Shown one piece after another: positions 663-32,473 of a stretch of DNA of 52,530 nucleotides. How positions within the stretch are numbered: position 1 is the stretch's first letter; each line of letters starts with the position of its first letter. Made by a program: the position numbers and the translations under genes. Source of the stretch: Clostridia bacterium (GTDB taxonomy: Bacteria; Bacillota; Clostridia; DUPQ01); contig JAFGQE010000018.1 of NCBI GenBank assembly GCA_016935835.1, positions 1 through 52,530 on the forward strand, read 5' to 3'. The notes below the pieces were generated by a model. The model was given only the letters and a program-made list of their open reading frames with translations, had not been told where the DNA came from and searched no databases.

Positions 663-1791
663 AATCAGCTTCTTCCATTGCGCCGACACACATCTCGACT
701 CCCCGTTTTCATCCCTTTCATCAAAACCGGGGCTTCCCGCATTGAGAAGACGGCAGCTTCTTGACACTTTCATGAAAATGATTGATTTGGCCAAATCTGA
801 AAAACCCGACTTTCTTTTCATCGCCGGCGATTTATTCGAGCATGAATATGCCCGGCTTGCCACTATCTCGGCCATAGACTCGGCATTTGCGGCAATCCCC
901 GGCACAAGGGTTGTGATGATTGCGGGCAATCACGATCCCGAGGCAGCCGATTCTTTTTACCTTACATATAAATGGAGTCCCAATGTGTATTTTCTTGGGG
1001 AATCACAAGAAAGCATTTTCTTTGAAGATAAAAACACCGAGGTATTCGGGCTTGGCTGGGGACCCGGCTACGGCCAGAAGGACCGGCTTGAAACAATGGT
1101 CCCCGATAGAGGCAGGATCAACATTCTTTTGTTCCATGGCGATATCGACCTTGATATAGGAGTCCGCGACTATAACTCCGTCCCGGCCGCCGTCCTAAAG
1201 GCCGGGGGGTTTGATTATGTGGCCGCGGGGCACAACCACAGGCTTCGCGAATCAATGGGAAACGGCCTTATATTCAACCCGGGCAGCCTTGAGCCACTTG
1301 GTTTCGACGAACCCGGCAAACATGGTTATTTTACCGGGGAAGCGGGTGTTTCCCAGGCTCCCGTGGTAAAGTTCATGGAAATCTCAAGGACAATGTATGA
1401 AACACTCGAATTCGACATAACCGGACTGTCATCCGACAACGAGGTCATTGAAGGCCTGAAAAACAAGGCATCAGGCACCGATGTTTTGTACCGTATAATC
1501 CTCAGGGGCAAAAGACCCGTGGATTATTATCCTTCTGTTTCCCTTTTGGAAAGCGGTCTTGCCAAATCAATTCTATTTGCCCGCATCGTCGACGAATCGT
1601 CCGCAGACATTGCTTTGGAAGATCTTTCTGTGATGAAAGGCCTCAAAGGCGCCTTTGTTCGCAATATTCTCGGGAAAATTGAAAAGGCGGGCTCCGACGA
1701 TGAACGGATACTGCTTGAGAAAGCCCTCCACTATGGGCTGGAGGCCATTGACAACGGGAAAATTGAAACAGCGGGAGGTGAGATTCTTTGA
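655..1791 (+). CDS. yhaO: metallophosphoesterase, DNA repair exonuclease subunit (YhaO/SbcD type)
   Basis: A calcineurin-fold metallophosphoesterase of 378 residues, expected to be the nuclease partner of the ATPase encoded next. All metal-binding motifs are visible in order: 'HCADTHLDS' near residues 8-16, 'IAGDLFEHE', 'MIAGNHDPE', 'LLFHGDID' and 'VAAGHNHRL'. This order and the N-terminal DTHLDSPF signature fit the YhaO/SbcD class of Mn-dependent exonucleases. ATG at 655 is preferred over the adjacent TTG at 652 because GGGAGG at 643-648 is then 6 bases away. The gene overlaps acpS by 8 bases and yhaN by 4 bases, which implies one transcript. The pairing with an SMC-like ATPase indicates a double-strand break processing complex; the actual substrate is inferred. 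Confidence 0.88.
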   Translation: MNKISFFHCADTHLDSPFSSLSSKPGLPALRRRQLLDTFMKMIDLAKSEKPDFLFIAGDLFEHEYARLATISAIDSAFAAIPGTRVVMIAGNHDPEAADSFYLTYKWSPNVYFLGESQESIFFEDKNTEVFGLGWGPGYGQKDRLETMVPDRGRINILLFHGDIDLDIGVRDYNSVPAAVLKAGGFDYVAAGHNHRLRESMGNGLIFNPGSLEPLGFDEPGKHGYFTGEAGVSQAPVVKFMEISRTMYETLEFDITGLSSDNEVIEGLKNKASGTDVLYRIILRGKRPVDYYPSVSLLESGLAKSILFARIVDESSADIALEDLSVMKGLKGAFVRNILGKIEKAGSDDERILLEKALHYGLEAIDNGKIETAGGEIL

Positions 1792-3893
1792 AAATCAAAG
1801 GAATGCACCTTAAGGGATTTGGAAAATTCGTTGATACGCGGTTTTATTTCCAGGAAGGATTCAACCTGGTATTCGGGAAAAACGAAGCCGGCAAATCCAC
1901 CCTCCAGTCTTTTATCAAAGCCATGCTCTTTGGGCTTGACAGAAACACGCTTGATACAGAGGACCGGCCTTCCGACTCGAGGAAATACAATCCCTGGGCT
2001 TCGGATGAATTCGGCGGAAGCATGGAAATTCTGCTGTCCAAAGGGGAAACGCTGCGATTGGAACAGGATTTCACGAATAGGCAAACCAACGTTTATGATG
2101 ATAATCTGCGCAACATAACTTCCAGTTATCCCTATTCTACAAGGGGCGGCCTTAGGTTCGGCGAAACAATACTCGGCATGGACAGGGAATGTTTTGAAAA
2201 CAGCGCCTTTATAAGGCAAGGCGGGACCGTTGTTCTGAAAAACGAAAGAAAAAACCTTATCGAAAGACTTATGAACCTTTCACAGACCGGCAGCGAGGAC
2301 TCTTCCGCGGCAGACACTCTGAGAGCTCTCGGGGAAGCCAAAAAGTCCCTTGGGAACGACCGCACGCAGAACAGGCCCTACAACATGGCGAAGAAGGACC
2401 TTGCGAATCTTGAAAACGCCTTGGAAAAAGCCCGCAAAAAACATGCCGGGATGGCAGGACACCTTGAGCGGAAAAGCTATCTCGAAGATAAACTTGCCGA
2501 ATTGAAGAAAAAGGTTGACGAGGCCAATATGGCCGAAACGGCCCGGGACCTTTTCAAGCAGCGCTCACAATTGCTCCTGGCATTGGAACAACAGCTAGAA
2601 TCAAACAAGGAAATTGACGCCCTTAGCCGCGAAATATATGATTTACAAACAAAAATTTCGGATTATGGCCTTCCCTCCGGGGTTGCTGAAAGCGATATAA
2701 TGTCGCATATAAGAAAGGCGGCGGCTTCAAGGGAAAAACTCAATATGGTCGGCGGCATTGACCCTGAAATAGAATCCGTCAAATTGGCCGGGCTGAAAAA
2801 AAGAAGGGGGATCCTGAAGATTCTTTGTTACATTGGAATCACTGTTTCAGCCGCGGCGGCTTTCATTTTTCATCCTTTGATTTTTACGGCGACAGGGCTC
2901 CTTACCCTGTTGCTTGCATTTCTCTATTTTAAAAAGCCATCGCATACCCAGGCCGAACTTGATGAAAAGATCCGTATCAAAAACGATTGTTCGCGGGAGC
3001 TTATAATGATAAACGCCTTCATCGAATCCGCCGGCGGCAAGCATGCGGATTCTTTCGGAGAAGCAGAACTTACATTGAACTCCCTTTTTGAGAAGTTGAA
3101 TTCCATTTCCAGGCTCAGGAATCTGATTGAAATCAAGGATGCCCGAAAATCCGATGCAGGGAAAGCAAGAAATGCCCTGGAGGTCAGATTCGGGCCCGTT
3201 TCAATCATTGAGCAACAGTTGGAAAATCTTGATAAGAAGATTGAATCCGCCGGGTTTGAAGAGTCCGCCCTTCCCTCTTCTTCCGATTCGGAACACTACC
3301 GCACCTCCTATGCCGAACTGGAACGTGAACTTGCGGGAATCAATTTTTATCTGAGGGAATCGCTTCATGGCAACGACTCTCCCGCTGAAGAGGAGGAAGC
3401 CCTGGCGCAATGCTCCGAAAGGTTGAAAAACATAGAAGCGGAGAAGCGGGCGATCGAGCTTGCCGAAAATGCGGTGGCCGAGTCCGCCCTCGAACTCCAA
3501 AAAAGCATCCTTCCGAAAATAAGCGGGGAAATGGAATCCCTTCTTGAAAAAATAACCGGTGGAACCCATGCGAATCTTCGGGTGGGAAGCGACATGACGG
3601 TCAATTCCATTGACCTTGCGAATGTCCGGTCAATCTGGGATTTCAGCGACGGAACGGTTGACCAAATGTACTTTTCCCTTAGAGTCGCCGCCGCCCGCGC
3701 CTTTTCAGAAAAGGAGCCGGTTCCGCTGATAATCGATGAGCCTTTCGCTTTTTACGACGAGGAAAGAATAAGGAATGCATTTGAGTTGCTCTCAAGGTTA
3801 TCAGGGGATTTACAAATAATCCTCTTCACCTGCAAGGAAAAGGAGCTTGAGCTCGCATCCGGCCTAAACGATATAAACATTATAAGGATTTGA
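1788..3893 (+). CDS. yhaN: SbcC/RecF-like AAA ATPase with central membrane hairpin (YhaN type)
   Basis: A 701-residue SMC/Rad50-like ATPase paired with the preceding nuclease. The Walker A motif GKNEAGKS is at residues 30-37. A predicted coiled coil follows, then two adjacent hydrophobic segments at about 342-382, then a second coiled coil. A signature-like stretch 'DGTVDQMYFSLRVA' and Walker B 'PLIIDEPFAFYDEE' (from about residue 646) close the protein. The hydrophobic hairpin where Rad50 carries its zinc hook is characteristic of YhaN rather than SbcC, and suggests membrane anchoring of the coiled-coil tip. TTG at 1788 is chosen because GGGAGGTG (1772-1779) precedes it and the N-terminus 'MKIKGMHLKGFGKF' is typical. 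The 3' end overlaps the convergent dnaD-like gene by 14 bases. Confidence 0.87.
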   Translation: MKIKGMHLKGFGKFVDTRFYFQEGFNLVFGKNEAGKSTLQSFIKAMLFGLDRNTLDTEDRPSDSRKYNPWASDEFGGSMEILLSKGETLRLEQDFTNRQTNVYDDNLRNITSSYPYSTRGGLRFGETILGMDRECFENSAFIRQGGTVVLKNERKNLIERLMNLSQTGSEDSSAADTLRALGEAKKSLGNDRTQNRPYNMAKKDLANLENALEKARKKHAGMAGHLERKSYLEDKLAELKKKVDEANMAETARDLFKQRSQLLLALEQQLESNKEIDALSREIYDLQTKISDYGLPSGVAESDIMSHIRKAAASREKLNMVGGIDPEIESVKLAGLKKRRGILKILCYIGITVSAAAAFIFHPLIFTATGLLTLLLAFLYFKKPSHTQAELDEKIRIKNDCSRELIMINAFIESAGGKHADSFGEAELTLNSLFEKLNSISRLRNLIEIKDARKSDAGKARNALEVRFGPVSIIEQQLENLDKKIESAGFEESALPSSSDSEHYRTSYAELERELAGINFYLRESLHGNDSPAEEEEALAQCSERLKNIEAEKRAIELAENAVAESALELQKSILPKISGEMESLLEKITGGTHANLRVGSDMTVNSIDLANVRSIWDFSDGTVDQMYFSLRVAAARAFSEKEPVPLIIDEPFAFYDEERIRNAFELLSRLSGDLQIILFTCKEKELELASGLNDINIIRI

Positions 3894-5115
3894 TTTGCCT
3901 GATAAGTTCCTTGCGGCAATTGCAGCTGCTGCCATCGGGCAGCACGCCCGTATCCGAGCATTCGTTGCAGTTGTATGCCGGTTCGAGATAATTCCGTGGG
4001 AATCCGTTTTCGACAATAAGCCTTTCCGCCATATCCTTCATGATGTCTATTTGCGAAAAAGCATCCTGCTTGTCATTTTTTTTCATTGACAATGAATCTA
4101 TGCTCAGGTTCGCAATGTCCAAAAGCAGTTTCTGTATTTCAGGAGCCTTCAGAAAGACCTCTGATTTTCTTTTTTCCATCAACTGTTCATTATTCGTCTT
4201 CAGTTGTTCATAATGCTCCCGCACCTTCTTCTTCAGCATTACATCGTCGATTCCGCCTTCTGTCTTTGCCTGGGCATATCTGGCGGCTTCGCCTTCTATC
4301 TGGCTTTTTGTCCTCAGTCCCTTCTTGTTCCAGTCGGTGAGGATCTTGTGAAAATATTCAAGGTTGGGGCTTGATATCTTAACCGAATTCTTTAGGGCCA
4401 GCTCGATTATGTCCATTCCATATCCGTAATCGTCGACCCACTTCTTTATGTACCTTTCTTCATATTCGGTGAAAGGAGCCCTTCTTTTAAGTTTTTTTGC
4501 GATTATGGCGGAAACATCCTTCATCTTTTTATATTTCAAAAAATACTCGTCAAGGTCAAAGCTGTTTTTAATGCCGGCGTCAGACCAGTTCTTTGCAACC
4601 GCATTAACATAAGAATATTTGAGCAATCCCCTCTCGCTGCAATAATTGAAGAGGGAATACATGACGTCGTCTTCAAATTTATATAGGTTGAACCACATTT
4701 CTATGTTCGTGTACCACGATATCGGCATTATCCCCTGGAAAAAGCTCTTGCTTATGGTCGACATTATGTTTTTCTTGGCATCAAGATCCATTTCTCCCCG
4801 AACCGAACGCGGCTTGTAAAGTTTTGTGATTTCCTTGTCCTTTATATCGACAAGAAAATAACCCTTGCCTTTCTTTTGAAACAGCCCTTTTTCAAGCAAT
4901 TCGTCAAAAATCACCATTATCTCGTTTTCGGAAATACCGAATGTCTTGGCGAACTGGATTTCGGAAATCTTTTTTCTGTGATTTGATAAAAACAGGCAGT
5001 ATAAATATACCTTGACCTGAACACCCGTCATTTCAGGCAGATATTCGCTGATGAAAATATCCGGAACGGGGGTGTCAGAATATAAAAATGCTTTTGAGTC
5101 TTCAAATATATACAT
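3880..5115 (-). CDS. dnaD: DnaD-domain replication protein fused to a DnaI/DnaC-like N-terminal zinc domain
   Basis: A 411-residue protein of primosome type. Residues about 10-100 form a winged-helix region. Two DnaD (DnaB_2-type) helical modules follow at about 125-185 and 210-270; the second has 'KWVDDYGYGMDIIELAL'. Charged helix occupies about 285-320. The last 90 residues do not look like DnaD. They match the N-terminal domain of the helicase loader DnaI/DnaC: 'APEIQKLLLDIANLSID', then 'GFPRNYLEPAYNC', then four cysteines (383, 386, 398, 400) around DTG. The chain stops where the AAA+ ATPase domain of DnaC would begin. The ATG is preceded by AGGAAA. A minus-strand -10 (ATTATA on plus, 5142-5147) with a weak -35 lies upstream. 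The fusion boundary and loss of the ATPase part are inferred from motif recall, not from a search. Confidence 0.8.
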   Translation of the reverse strand: MYIFEDSKAFLYSDTPVPDIFISEYLPEMTGVQVKVYLYCLFLSNHRKKISEIQFAKTFGISENEIMVIFDELLEKGLFQKKGKGYFLVDIKDKEITKLYKPRSVRGEMDLDAKKNIMSTISKSFFQGIMPISWYTNIEMWFNLYKFEDDVMYSLFNYCSERGLLKYSYVNAVAKNWSDAGIKNSFDLDEYFLKYKKMKDVSAIIAKKLKRRAPFTEYEERYIKKWVDDYGYGMDIIELALKNSVKISSPNLEYFHKILTDWNKKGLRTKSQIEGEAARYAQAKTEGGIDDVMLKKKVREHYEQLKTNNEQLMEKRKSEVFLKAPEIQKLLLDIANLSIDSLSMKKNDKQDAFSQIDIMKDMAERLIVENGFPRNYLEPAYNCNECSDTGVLPDGSSCNCRKELIRQIKSL

Positions 5116-27229: not shown

Positions 27230-27308
27230 CATATGTGTTATGATATGTTTTGTTTTGCGGACAGGTCCGTAAATCAGTTTTATCCGCATGTGTGTGAAAG
27301 GAAATACC

Positions 27309-29228
27309 ATGAACAAAGTTGAGTTGCTTGGAAGATGGACAAAAGAAAATTCCGAAGAACTTTATGGCATAAAGAACTGGGGAAGCGGATATTTTTCCAT
27401 ATCTGACAAGGGGGAGATTATCGTAACTCCTAATAACGGCAGGTCGGCTTCCGGTGTAAGCCTGATGGACATCATCTCAGGTGTTAAGGACCGTGGATTT
27501 GACATGCCTGTTCTTCTGCGGTTTGAAAATATACTCGATTCCCAGATATCCTTTCTTAACAATTCATTCAACAATGCCATTAAAACACTTGGATACAAAG
27601 GAACATACCGCGGCGTTTATCCCGTCAAGGTAAACCAGCAGCAACAGGTCCTGGAGGAAATGACAAAATTCGGGCAGCGTTACCACCACGGGCTTGAGGT
27701 TGGAAGCAAGGCTGAGCTTATTGCCGCCCTTTCCCTTATGACCGACAGGGAGGCCTGCCTGATATGCAATGGGTACAAAGACGAGGAGTTCATAGACCTG
27801 GGGCTTTATGCCGTCAAGATGGGCCTGAAGTGCTTTTTTGTAATAGAGATTCCCGGGGAGCTTGATACTATCTTGAACCGGGCGGAGATCCTTGGCGTCA
27901 AGCCCAATATCGGCGTCAGGATCAAGGTTGCATCAAAAGCGGGGGGATACTGGGCTGAATCAGGGGGAGACCGCAGTGTTTTCGGCCTCAATATGTCTCA
28001 GGTAATCGGAATTGTTGATACGCTTAAAGAAAAGGACATGCTCGGTTGCCTTAAGCTTCTTCATTATCACCTTGGGTCCCAGATACCAAACATACGCGAT
28101 ATCCGGTCCGCCGTGCTGGAAGCCGCAAGGGTTTATTCGGAACTTATCAAAGAAGGCGCCGCGATGGGGTATCTTGACCTGGGCGGAGGCCTGGCGGTCG
28201 ATTATGATGGTTCCAGCACCAATTTTTCGAGCAGCCGCAATTATTCCGTGGAGGAATACTGCGCCGATGTGGTCGAAGCAGTCATGAACGTAATGGACGC
28301 CGACGGGCTTCCCCATCCTATAATAGTGACCGAATCCGGCCGCGCCCTTGTCGCCTATTATTCCGTTTTGCTCTTCAATGTTCTGGATGTTGCCCGGTTT
28401 GAGGTGTTTGATGTCCCGGATACGCTCCCGGACAATGCCCCGGAGGCAACCGCCAATCTCTTCGAGGTAAGCAAAAGCCTTGGAATAAAGAACATACAGG
28501 AATGCTACAATGACGCACTTTATTATCGCGACCAGATACGGGAGATGTTCAAGCATGGCAACATAAGCCTTCGCGAACGTTCGGTCTCGGAAAAAATATT
28601 CTGGAATATTATCAGCAGAATAGCAAGGGAAAAGAAAAAGATGAAGTTCGTTCCGCCGGAACTCGAAAACATCGAAAGCGCCATTGCCGATATTTATTAT
28701 TGTAATTTTTCCGTTTTTCAATCAATTCCCGACAGCTGGGCGATTGACCAGCTGTTTCCCATTATGCCGGTTCACCGGCTTTTGGAAATTCCATCCAGAA
28801 ACGCCGTGATAGCTGACATAACATGCGATTGCGACGGCAAGATTGACAACTTCATCGATCTCCATGATGTCAGCAAGACCCTTCCCCTTCATCTCCTTAA
28901 TAACGACGAGGACTACTATATCGGGGTTTTCCTTGTCGGCGCCTATCAGGAAACGCTTGGGGACCTTCATAATCTTTTCGGTGATACGAATGTCGTAAGC
29001 ATACGGATAAATGACGACGGCGGATTTGACTTTGTCCGGGAAATTTACGGCGACAGCGTCGCGGATGTTCTTTCATATGTGGAATACGACACCAAGGATA
29101 TGAAAACCGGCTTCCGGACCATTGCCGAGGAAGCTGTGAAGGAGGGCCGTATTACAGCCTCCGAGCGGAGGGAAATAGTTTCATCGTTTGACAACGGCCT
29201 CCGCGGATATACATATTACGAACGATAA
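27309..29228 (+). CDS. speA: biosynthetic arginine decarboxylase (alanine racemase fold)
   Basis: A 639-residue PLP enzyme converting arginine to agmatine, with the standard length of large SpeA proteins. The PLP lysine is Lys107 in 'VYPVKVNQQ'. Further hallmarks are 'GLEVGSKAEL', 'LHYHLGSQIPNI', the glycine-rich 'YLDLGGGLAVDYDGS', 'TESGRALVA' and the C-terminal 'ITCDCDGKI' with the active-site Cys-Asp. ATG 27309 is preferred (AAAGGA upstream) over a frame extension to 27288. It heads a four-gene spermidine operon. This fold-III enzyme is commonest in Proteobacteria and plants, whereas many Firmicutes use an aspartate-aminotransferase-fold enzyme instead, so it is slightly unusual here. Confidence 0.95.
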   Translation: MNKVELLGRWTKENSEELYGIKNWGSGYFSISDKGEIIVTPNNGRSASGVSLMDIISGVKDRGFDMPVLLRFENILDSQISFLNNSFNNAIKTLGYKGTYRGVYPVKVNQQQQVLEEMTKFGQRYHHGLEVGSKAELIAALSLMTDREACLICNGYKDEEFIDLGLYAVKMGLKCFFVIEIPGELDTILNRAEILGVKPNIGVRIKVASKAGGYWAESGGDRSVFGLNMSQVIGIVDTLKEKDMLGCLKLLHYHLGSQIPNIRDIRSAVLEAARVYSELIKEGAAMGYLDLGGGLAVDYDGSSTNFSSSRNYSVEEYCADVVEAVMNVMDADGLPHPIIVTESGRALVAYYSVLLFNVLDVARFEVFDVPDTLPDNAPEATANLFEVSKSLGIKNIQECYNDALYYRDQIREMFKHGNISLRERSVSEKIFWNIISRIAREKKKMKFVPPELENIESAIADIYYCNFSVFQSIPDSWAIDQLFPIMPVHRLLEIPSRNAVIADITCDCDGKIDNFIDLHDVSKTLPLHLLNNDEDYYIGVFLVGAYQETLGDLHNLFGDTNVVSIRINDDGGFDFVREIYGDSVADVLSYVEYDTKDMKTGFRTIAEEAVKEGRITASERREIVSSFDNGLRGYTYYER

Positions 29229-29272
29229 GTGCTAGAATAATATTGGACCCGGAAATTTTTAGGAGTTTTCTT

Positions 29273-30121
29273 ATGATAAAAGACAACAAGCCTCATATTC
29301 ACGAGGGCATATTCTCATCCTACGCCGACAGCAGAATCGTTGTCTTCGGCATACCCTATGACGGAACGGCGTCATACAGGCCCGGAACACGTTTCGGGCC
29401 GCAGTCGATTCGCCAGGAACTCGGCGGCATTGAAACATACAGCCCTTATCAGGACATGAACCTTGCCAATCACCGGATAAGCGACATGGGCGATATGCCC
29501 CTGCATTTCGGAAACATCGCGGCGGTTCTTGAAGAAATGAAAAGGGAAACAGCTGAATTTTTAAAAGACGGCAAGAAAACCGTTGTCCTCGGGGGAGAAC
29601 ACCTGATAAGCCTTCCCGTCATCGATGCTTATATAGAGGCTTACCCCGGTCTTTCTGTCGTTCATCTTGATGCGCATGCGGATCTGCGGGATGAGTATCT
29701 AGGCGAAAAGCTGTCGCATGCAACTGTAATGAGAAGGGTCTTTGAAAAGCTTGAGGGTGAAATGTGGCAGTTCGGCATAAGGTCCGGAGCCAAGGATGAA
29801 TTTGCATTTGCCGATGCAAACACCCGCATGACTAAATTTGACCTGTCGGGAATTGATGCCGTAAGGGATACGGCGGGAGATTCTCCAATATATCTTTCGA
29901 TTGACATCGATGTGCTCGACCCCTCGATTCTCCCCGGCACGGGAACACCCGAGGCAGGCGGGATAACTTTCAAGGAATTGATTTCCGGGCTTCTCACATT
30001 GAAAGGTTTGAATATAGTCGGCGCCGACATAGTGGAACTGTCTCCGCATTACGACCAGAGCGGCGTCTCAACTTCAGTGGCCTGCAAGGTTTTGCGGGAA
30101 GTGCTGCTGCTGTTGGCTTGA
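29273..30121 (+). CDS. speB: agmatinase (ureohydrolase)
   Basis: A 282-residue Mn-dependent ureohydrolase that splits agmatine into putrescine and urea. The metal motifs are 'VVLGGEHLIS', 'VVHLDAHADLRDEY' and 'YLSIDIDVLDPS', and 'GTGTPEAGGI' follows as in agmatinases. AGGAG at 29261-29265 selects ATG 29273 over a TTG ten codons earlier. It lies 44 bases after speA and 19 bases before the carboxyspermidine dehydrogenase gene. The order on the chromosome follows the order of the reactions. Confidence 0.94.
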   Translation: MIKDNKPHIHEGIFSSYADSRIVVFGIPYDGTASYRPGTRFGPQSIRQELGGIETYSPYQDMNLANHRISDMGDMPLHFGNIAAVLEEMKRETAEFLKDGKKTVVLGGEHLISLPVIDAYIEAYPGLSVVHLDAHADLRDEYLGEKLSHATVMRRVFEKLEGEMWQFGIRSGAKDEFAFADANTRMTKFDLSGIDAVRDTAGDSPIYLSIDIDVLDPSILPGTGTPEAGGITFKELISGLLTLKGLNIVGADIVELSPHYDQSGVSTSVACKVLREVLLLLA

Positions 30122-30140
30122 ATTTTTGGAGGTGTATTAA

Positions 30141-31340
30141 TTGAGTAAGGCTTTGATAATAGGAGCTGGCGGCGTTTCCAATGTGGTTGTTCACAAATGT
30201 TGCCAGAATCCGGATGTTTTTGAGGAAATCTGCATTGCCAGCCGTACAAAGGCAAAGTGCGACGCAATGAAAGAAAAACTGGACGACGGCAGGACGATCA
30301 TACAAACCGCCCGCCTTGATGCGGACAATACGGACGAAGTCATTTCGCTTATCAAGTCGTTCAAACCCGATATCGTTATAAACGTAGCCCTCCCATATCA
30401 GGACCTTGCGATAATGGATGCCTGCCTTGCCACCGGGGTTCATTACCTTGACACTGCGAACTATGAGCCTCCCGATGTTCCGAGGTTTGAATACAAATGG
30501 CAGTGGGCATACCGCGAACGCTTTGAAAAGGCCGGGATAACGGCTTTGCTGGGAAGCGGTTTCGACCCCGGTGTCACAGGTGTTTTCTGCGCCTACGCCC
30601 AAAAACATTACTTTGATGAAATACATTCGGTGGATATCCTGGACGCCAACGCAGGGGACCACGGCTACCATTTTGCCACCAATTTCAATCCCGAGATCAA
30701 TATACGAGAGATCACCGCCAACGGCAGGTACTGGGAAGACGGGAAATGGATGGAAACCCCGCCTCTTTCAATCAAAAGGGAATATGACTTTCCGCAAATC
30801 GGACCAAAGGACATCTATCTTTTGTATCATGAGGAACTGGAGTCCCTTGCCGCCAATATAAAGGGCTTGAAGCGAATTCGTTTCTGGATGACTTTCTCTG
30901 AGAAATATCTTACCCACCTGAGGGTTCTTGAAAATGTCGGAATGACGTCAATCGAACCGATATTATTCGAGGGCAAAAAAATCCAGCCCCTGCAATTTTT
31001 GAAGGCTGTTCTTCCCGATCCGGCCTCCCTGGGGCCCCGGACAAAGGGAAAGACCAACATAGGCTGCGTAATAAAGGGCATCAAGGACGGGCGGCCGAAG
31101 TCTTATTATGTGTACAATGTATGCGTTCATGAAAGCGCCTATGCCGAGGTCGGCTCCCAGGCTATATCCTACACCACAGGCGTCCCCGCGGTTATCGGGG
31201 CGATGATGATACTAAAGGGATTGTGGAACAAGCCCGGCGTATATAACGTCGAGGAATTCGACCCTGACCCTTTCATGGAGGAACTCAACCGGCAGGGTCT
31301 GCCCTGGCATGAGGATTTCAATCCCGTGCATCTGGATTAG
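30141..31340 (+). CDS. carboxynorspermidine/carboxyspermidine dehydrogenase (saccharopine dehydrogenase family)
   Basis: A 399-residue reductase. The N-terminal Rossmann motif 'ALIIGAGGVSNVVVHKC' and 'IASRTKAKC' match the CASDH branch of the saccharopine dehydrogenase family. Other family stretches are 'LDTANYEPPD', 'LLGSGFDPGVTGVF' and 'DANAGDHGYHFATNFNPEI' (read in parts). It condenses putrescine with aspartate semialdehyde and reduces the imine with NADPH to carboxyspermidine. The TTG start at 30141 is supported by GGAGGTG 6-7 bases upstream. It lies 8 bases before nspC, the next step in the pathway, which supports the assignment over lysine metabolism. Confidence 0.92.
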   Translation: MSKALIIGAGGVSNVVVHKCCQNPDVFEEICIASRTKAKCDAMKEKLDDGRTIIQTARLDADNTDEVISLIKSFKPDIVINVALPYQDLAIMDACLATGVHYLDTANYEPPDVPRFEYKWQWAYRERFEKAGITALLGSGFDPGVTGVFCAYAQKHYFDEIHSVDILDANAGDHGYHFATNFNPEINIREITANGRYWEDGKWMETPPLSIKREYDFPQIGPKDIYLLYHEELESLAANIKGLKRIRFWMTFSEKYLTHLRVLENVGMTSIEPILFEGKKIQPLQFLKAVLPDPASLGPRTKGKTNIGCVIKGIKDGRPKSYYVYNVCVHESAYAEVGSQAISYTTGVPAVIGAMMILKGLWNKPGVYNVEEFDPDPFMEELNRQGLPWHEDFNPVHLD

Positions 31341-31348
31341 GACGAATT

Positions 31349-32473
31349 ATGAATTTTGATATAACTGAAATACATACTCCTTCATATATTGTCGATAAAC
31401 GGCTGCTGGAAAATAACCTTGAGGTTCTGAACTATGTGCAGAAAGAAGCCGGGTGCAAAATCCTGGCCGCCTTGAAAGGTTTTTCCATGTACTCATTCTT
31501 TCCTCTGATCGGGGAATATCTTTTTGGTATTACATCAAGCTCTCTGAATGAAGCAAGGCTTGGTTTTGAGGAAATGGGAAAAGAAGTCCATATATATTCA
31601 CCTGCTTTCATCGCCGCTGAGTTTGATGAACTACTTAAATATTGCGATCATTTTGTATTCAATTCCTTTTCACAATACCGTCAGTTCGGCAAAAGGGCAA
31701 AAAGCCTGGGCAAGGAATGCGGGATAAGGATCAATCCCGAGTATTCCGAGATAATGACCGACATGTATAATCCATGCTTTGCCTATTCCCGGCTGGGCGT
31801 CACGCTTGATAATTTTGAGGAAGACAGCCTTTTAGGAATAGACGGCCTTCATTTCCACACTATGTGCGAACAAAATTCAGACACGCTTGAAAGGACCATT
31901 GAGGTAATAGAGGATAAGTTCGGCCGTTTCCTTCACGGGATGAAGTGGTTGAACTTCGGGGGCGGCCACCATATAACCCGGAAAGATTATGACGTCGAAA
32001 GACTTATAAGGATAATCAGACGGATAAAATCCAAATATTCCGTCGAAGTCTATCTCGAGCCCGGGGAAGCAATTGCCCTGAACACGGGGTTTTTGGTTGC
32101 CAGCGTTGTTGACATAGTAAAAAACGGCATGGCAATAGCTATCCTCGACACATCCGCGGCATGTCATATGCCGGATGTAATAGAGATGCCATACCGCCCC
32201 GAAATCATCGGGGCAGGAAAACCCGGCGAATTCGCCTATACTTATCGGCTTGGAGGACTGACTTGCCTGGCGGGCGATGTGATTGGAGACTATTCATTTC
32301 CGGAGGCCCTGAAGCCGGGCGACAAGCTGGTATTTACAGACATGGCGCATTATACCATGGTGAAGAACAACACTTTCAACGGTGTTAACCTTCCTTCCAT
32401 CGCAATCGCCGATGACGACGGTATAACTTTTATCAAGCGTTTCGGATATGAAGATTATAAAAGAAGGCTGTAA
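31349..32473 (+). CDS. nspC: carboxynorspermidine/carboxyspermidine decarboxylase
   Basis: A 374-residue fold-III PLP decarboxylase that yields spermidine (or norspermidine). The PLP lysine is in 'ILAALKGFSMYSFF', a characteristic NspC sequence. 'GLHFHTMCEQNSDTL', 'WLNFGGGHHITR' and 'YLEPGEAIALNTGF' are further matches, and 'GGLTCLAGDVIGDY' carries the C-terminal active-site Cys-x-x-Asp arrangement. Together with speA, speB and the dehydrogenase it completes spermidine synthesis without S-adenosylmethionine decarboxylase. The stop and the next gene's ATG share a base (TAATG). Confidence 0.95.
   Translation: MNFDITEIHTPSYIVDKRLLENNLEVLNYVQKEAGCKILAALKGFSMYSFFPLIGEYLFGITSSSLNEARLGFEEMGKEVHIYSPAFIAAEFDELLKYCDHFVFNSFSQYRQFGKRAKSLGKECGIRINPEYSEIMTDMYNPCFAYSRLGVTLDNFEEDSLLGIDGLHFHTMCEQNSDTLERTIEVIEDKFGRFLHGMKWLNFGGGHHITRKDYDVERLIRIIRRIKSKYSVEVYLEPGEAIALNTGFLVASVVDIVKNGMAIAILDTSAACHMPDVIEMPYRPEIIGAGKPGEFAYTYRLGGLTCLAGDVIGDYSFPEALKPGDKLVFTDMAHYTMVKNNTFNGVNLPSIAIADDDGITFIKRFGYEDYKRRL

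Follow-up and report, generated by a model that had tools for sequence, protein, structure and literature searches.

DnaD joined to the N-terminal domain of the helicase loader, with the loader ATPase absent, in two families of Clostridia

Can a bacterial helicase loader do without its ATPase, and what would then take over the duties of the lost part? This question is raised by a single gene in a stretch of 52,530 nucleotides from a Clostridia bacterium (contig JAFGQE010000018.1, assembly GCA_016935835.1), called the window below. The gene is an open reading frame (ORF) with an ATG start at positions 3880-5115 of the minus strand, and its product of 411 aa is a clostridial DnaD with two repeats that carries the zinc-type N-terminal domain of the loader (DnaC) as its tail and has no AAA+ domain. 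The same fusion occurs throughout two families, f1, to which the window's genome belongs, and f2, an unrelated second family.

The protein begins with a winged-helix-type DnaD N-terminal region (DDBH1, residues about 14-105, positions 4801-5076, on the minus strand like every other part), for which helices are predicted at residues 19-28, 31-45, 52-59 and 63-75 and strands at 79-82 and 85-88; comparison of the whole fusion model with the PDB (Foldseek) gave matches that include the DnaD entries 9a5c and 2vn2 (Geobacillus DnaD N-terminal domain) at expect values (E) of 2e-3 to 0.1. Two DnaD repeats of the DDBH2 type follow, each with a YxxxIxxxW-type motif: the first (residues about 111-180, positions 4576-4785; Pfam DnaB_2 and TIGR01446) contains Y169-x3-V173-x3-W177 and the second (residues 214-274, positions 4294-4476; best DnaB_2 stretch 214-274, DnaD_dom 215-274) contains Y254-x3-I258-x3-W262. 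Y169, V173 and W177 of repeat 1 as well as Y254 and W262 of repeat 2 are invariant in 10/10 aligned fusions. Two repeats with such motifs are also what has been described for CD3653 of C. difficile (PMC5204125). Over the complete protein, DnaB_2 was found in two stretches by Pfam (E 1.2e-25) and DnaD_dom in two stretches by NCBIfam (E 4.8e-19), and neither PF05258 (DciA) nor PF06992 (lambda-P) was among the Pfam matches. A short linker (residues 275-290, positions 4246-4293) stands where ordinary clostridial DnaD has its C-terminal peptide and leads into the loader N-terminal, helicase-binding-type domain (residues about 291-404, positions 3904-4245), which is defined both by a structural model of the tail and by a match of residues 295-404 to positions 6-121 of NF005304 (NCBIfam, E 2.8e-18). 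NF005304 (PRK06835) describes the clostridial DnaC-type ATP-binding protein over 330 positions. Because of this match, the tail must be a loader N-terminal domain and neither a chance similarity nor an ordinary DnaD C-terminus, the last of which had been put forward as a possible objection.

The alignment to NF005304 stops before the AAA+ domain, whereas a full clostridial loader (L028) is covered from position 4 to 324 in the same scan. None of 15 fusions has a Walker A motif, which 43 of 44 separate DnaC proteins do have; the one without it (L046) is an open frame of just 118 aa that covers the N-terminus and lies at the end of a contig. The initial annotation of the window, made from the sequence alone, had read the protein as DnaD fused to the N-terminal zinc region of the loader without the ATPase, and the Pfam and NCBIfam matches together with the missing Walker A motif bear this out; the domain was correctly named but its length, given as 90 residues, is nearer to 115-120 (about residues 291-411). 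The CxxC...CxC cysteines recognized at that time (C383-x2-C386...C398-x-C400, positions 3916-3969) form a putative zinc site that is likewise invariant in 10/10 aligned fusions, and in a wider alignment of fusion tails with the N-termini of separate DnaC proteins the four cysteines are conserved in 54/54 rows.

Purifying selection on the tail is strong, with ratios of nonsynonymous to synonymous substitution rates (dN/dS) of 0.055 (L024/L026) and 0.013 (L106/L107); these are the two of six pairs in which the ratio could be estimated, as synonymous divergence was saturated in the other four. AlphaFold2 predicts the tail alone with a mean predicted local distance difference test score of 97.2 as three long helices, a zinc-knuckle (cysteine) loop and a terminal helix. 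The model of the full-length fusion is of lower confidence, with flexible domain placement and a predicted template modelling score of 0.31.

The fusion was searched with the protein among 60 relatives and was found at full length in seven further f1 genomes (G001, G004, G005, G006, G008, G009 and G010) at 39-68% identity, which brings f1 to 8/11 with the window's own genome; the other three (G002, G003 and G007, which are 89, 77 and 69% complete) gave no match in protein and profile searches. The first two f2 genomes have this architecture too, with 21-26% identity, and five more were found later. In a survey of f2, the fusion profile was matched in 114/119 species (91 genera) and in 68/68 genomes of good quality. 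Most of these matches (109/119) are single stretches that start no later than profile position 30 and extend to at least position 394, four of them with one internal stop; the remaining five are split or cut, and the five species lacking a match to the fusion profile are 60-89% complete. A survey of the class matched the tail profile in 354/391 genomes, and no fusion outside f1 and f2 is among the matches listed for its best 150 places, although unlisted ones may hold others. In viral sequences, 55 stretches fitted the search pattern and none was a relative.

Ordinary relatives possess dnaD and full dnaC as neighbouring separate ORFs, and a full DnaC over the NF005304 cut-off is present in 42/60 relatives. 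No such protein was found in the 11 f1 genomes within that set, in 12 fusion genomes searched again, or in the 119 f2 genomes. What NF005304 does match in the fusion genomes is the fused N-terminal part, proteins as long as DnaA (about 440-500 aa, matched at profile positions 142-309), AAA+ proteins measuring about 250-296 aa, and P-loop stretches that are shorter or match more weakly. The window's own genome was also examined for a second DnaC, and a search there finds the fusion only: NF005304 gives the N-terminal match plus weak P-loop matches and nothing more, while PF01695 scores one 339-aa frame above its cut-off, at 26.6 bits and over no more than positions 88-121, and gives 17 weaker, short matches. 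Of the other loader types, DciA (PF05258, E up to 0.1) is absent from 13 f1/f2 genomes (11 f1 and 2 f2) in a search that was positive in 7/14 control genomes, and lambda-P (PF06992) is absent from 15 fusion genomes. Full DnaC is thus missing from both families, and DciA and lambda-P from the subsets searched. The replicative helicase itself is present, over the DnaB cut-off in 16/18 f1/f2 genomes and as a partial match in the other two. As a separate observation, two further Clostridia genomes (G013 and G031, 99 and 98% complete) gave no match to the fusion protein and no full loader above the cut-off of NF005304, G013 having a 309-aa partial match.

The fusions of f1 and f2 do not share an origin. 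In a tree of 59 rows built from DnaD plus the loader N-terminus (8 f1 fusions, 7 f2 fusions and 20 plus 24 separate pairs), each set of fusions is a clade supported at 100/100, and the two clades lie in opposite halves of the tree, split by a 100/100 branch and placed among the 20 and the 24 separate dnaD-dnaC pairs respectively. Forcing all fusions into one clade costs 170 log-likelihood units and is rejected by the approximately unbiased (AU) test (p 7.3e-98); the fusion therefore arose independently in the two families. This distribution also settles the objection that an adjacent dnaD and dnaC had simply been joined by an isolated deletion: separate neighbours are indeed what relatives outside the families have, but the event is not isolated, being fixed across f1 and, independently, across f2, where full DnaC is absent.

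Ordinary separate clostridial DnaD proteins (L027-L041, L069-L074) have a conserved peptide at their C-terminus (type NFxQRxYDxxFxxLY), and a profile of it matches 18/20 separate DnaD proteins of the clade on the f1 side, 2/24 of the other clade and 0/15 fusions, a count that is partly circular because the profile was built from the same 20 rows. A first strict pattern matched 14/44 separate proteins; a looser one matched 16/20 and 7/24, with one false match in the zinc region of a fusion (L023), and by eye the tails of the 24 proteins in the other clade look like variants of the peptide. In Bacillus subtilis, the C-terminal tail of the DDBH protein DnaB binds the AAA+ domain of DnaI, in a loading order reported as DnaA, DnaD, DnaB, DnaI and helicase (PMC13326638). 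By analogy, the clostridial peptide is a candidate docking peptide for the AAA+ domain of the loader. If so, both docking partners would have disappeared from the fusions at once, the coupling being kept in covalent form.

In all 27 f2 loci examined, the gene for the replicative helicase is found upstream of the fusion gene and on its strand, at about 250 bases or less in 22 of them and at about 1.6 kb in five. Among 40 loci with separate genes, 12 have the helicase gene within the roughly 5 kb covered. In the f1 draft assemblies, helicase and fusion are on different contigs. The helicases were also compared at the docking helix that other loaders bind. Among the f2 helicases (L144, L145, L152-L154, L156, L157 and L203-L222), 23/27 have Asp at the eighth residue past the conserved Trp, against 0/15 readable helicases of separate pairs, which may point to a changed loader interface or just to family history, the two being indistinguishable here. 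In three of ten f1 helicases (L149, L150 and L151, all of genus g2) the conserved Trp of this helix is replaced by Ile.

How might such a protein work? It is likely that the fusion acts as a DnaD-anchored loader that functions without an ATPase of its own. The DnaD part would bind DnaA and single-stranded origin DNA, as DnaD is known to do in Bacillus, and the attached tail would bind the replicative helicase and pass the ring to the exposed strand. The roles usually filled by the loader ATPase (DNA binding, a nucleotide-controlled brake and self-assembly on the ring) would be taken by DnaD or dropped. Where ordinary relatives probably link the DnaD-like protein to the loader non-covalently, through the C-terminal peptide on the AAA+ domain, the fusion would use one polypeptide in place of both docking partners. 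We infer that the tail binds the helicase and delivers the ring, and that no further type of loader takes part. The conservation of the tail, the lack of any other known loader and the f2 gene neighbourhood support the early suggestion that the protein could recruit the helicase directly; the companion suggestion that it might compete with the loader is not supported, for no full-length DnaC-type loader was found in its own genome or in any fusion genome searched. Published work on ATPase function agrees with a loader of this kind. In E. coli, the loader ATPase is reported not to be needed for helicase delivery (PMC8213410), and in C. difficile, Walker A and Walker B mutants of the loader CD3654 yield active helicase and helicase binding is retained in the Walker A mutants, ATP being described by the authors as a lock and not as a requirement for delivery (PMC5204125).

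Several points weigh against a DnaD-anchored loader. The AAA+ domain of DnaI bears a single-stranded DNA site, and the fusion is without that domain. Helicase binding in C. difficile is known for the loader as a whole, and the helicase-binding domain of the E. coli loader is described as having no homology to its DnaI counterpart (PMC3791466), so the E. coli analogy is functional only. The tail model has no clear fold match in the PDB (Foldseek, VIA-align 2), which does not show that the folds differ; searches of the PDB with the fusion or tail profile find DnaD and no loader N-terminus, a sequence search with the tail profile misses Bacillus DnaI, and a profile of full-length DnaC aligns weakly to DnaI (4m4w) across the zinc region. 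In addition, the f2 part of the DciA search covers two genomes only, and three of seven f2 genomes encode a DnaC-like AAA+ protein of about 280 aa (L111, L112 and L113).

The alternative that survives best, though still unlikely, is that the tail does no more than hold the helicase on DnaD, or bring it there, at the origin and that the ring then loads itself or is opened and activated by primase, so that no strict loader would be left. C. difficile helicase activity is primase-dependent, and the authors liken its loading to self-loading (PMC5204125). Tethering by itself, however, leaves the strong conservation of the loader domain and its retention on two occasions unexplained, and the isolated helicase-binding domain of the E. 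coli loader is reported to stimulate DnaB alone (PMC8213410).

It is improbable that the tail is kept for a job unrelated to the helicase, for example binding DnaA, DnaD multimers or another part of the replisome. Its fold, with no clear counterpart in the PDB, would leave room for such a job, but among relatives the domain is carried by loader proteins only, fusion and loader have the same zinc cysteines, and the upstream neighbour in f2 is the helicase gene. Slightly more doubtful still is an AAA+ function supplied in trans by DnaC-like or IstB-like ATPases of mobile elements, for which the fusion would be an adaptor. The three f2 proteins of about 280 aa could be such ATPases; they are absent from the other four of the seven f2 genomes and vary within one genus (G233 has one and G389 none), and two of them (L112 and L113) follow RepA_N genes, L112 also adjoining type IV secretion (conjugation) and resolvase genes by Pfam, while L111 stands among ORFs that look phage-like by eye and have no Pfam match. 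Finally, although the window's genome is a draft of 180 contigs, the chance that the gene is a broken dnaD-dnaC pair produced by an assembly error, frameshift or pseudogene formation is negligible, given that independently assembled genomes of many species share this architecture, among them the near-complete G389, G233, G457 and G472 of one to two contigs, that dN/dS of the tail is low and that no AAA+ coding region lies downstream. No AAA+ remnant follows the stop codon because the space is filled by the 3' end of a convergent ORF (positions 1788-3893, plus strand), which we take to be sbcC-like and which overlaps the fusion gene by 14 bases (3880-3893). Elsewhere in the window, positions 27288-32473 of the plus strand look by eye like a polyamine cluster (arginine decarboxylase, agmatinase, and a carboxynorspermidine-type dehydrogenase and decarboxylase).

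If the fusion is a DnaD-anchored loader, an entire and large clostridial family, sampled in 91 genera, would replicate without the DnaC/DnaI ATPase and, as far as tested, without DciA. On balance, we favour the view that this is a class of bacterial helicase loader without the loader ATPase, made at least twice, in which the AAA+ motor was lost and the helicase-binding domain joined to DnaD, bringing origin recognition and delivery into one chain. According to PMC5109545, dna[CI] genes, once found in an order, class or phylum, occur in all of its species, with the exception of Enterobacteriales and Alteromonadales; DciA is the complement of dna[CI], and a few species have neither. The fusion families fill a gap in this accepted division, in which bacteria use either DciA or DnaC/I. 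They also bear on an open question, the loader's need for its ATPase, which is dispensable for delivery in the E. coli and C. difficile data and yet is kept by AAA+ loaders: f1 and f2 are two natural experiments on this point, each having lost the ATPase with the same compensation by fusion to DnaD. By the Rosetta-stone argument, a DnaD-like protein and the loader would form one functional unit in Clostridia, and the fusions delimit the smallest piece of the loader kept by selection. A full-text literature search returned no description of a DnaD-loader fusion or of loss of the loader ATPase in titles and abstract openings, preprints and most subscription journals lying outside its reach; as far as searched, the parts are known, and their combination and the loss are new.

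Among known systems, DciA resembles the fusion as an ATP-independent class of loader (PMC8213410). The two proteins are unrelated. Phage lambda P is not known to have an ATPase. It is, like the fusion as proposed here, a loader that binds the helicase (PMC9912922). In the DnaB/DnaI pair of B. subtilis, a DDBH protein is coupled to a loader with a zinc-containing N-terminal helicase-binding domain (PMC13326638); unlike the fusion, which has neither peptide nor AAA+ domain and is linked covalently, that coupling is made by a C-terminal peptide on AAA+. The C. difficile pair of CD3653 (DnaD-like) and CD3654 (loader ATPase) is also similar, since a gene for a DDBH1-DDBH2-DDBH2 initiator adjoins that of a DnaC-type loader (PMC5204125); there, however, the two functions reside in two proteins and CD3654 keeps the AAA+ ATPase, whereas in f1 and f2 a single chain carries both the initiator and the N-terminal domain of the loader.

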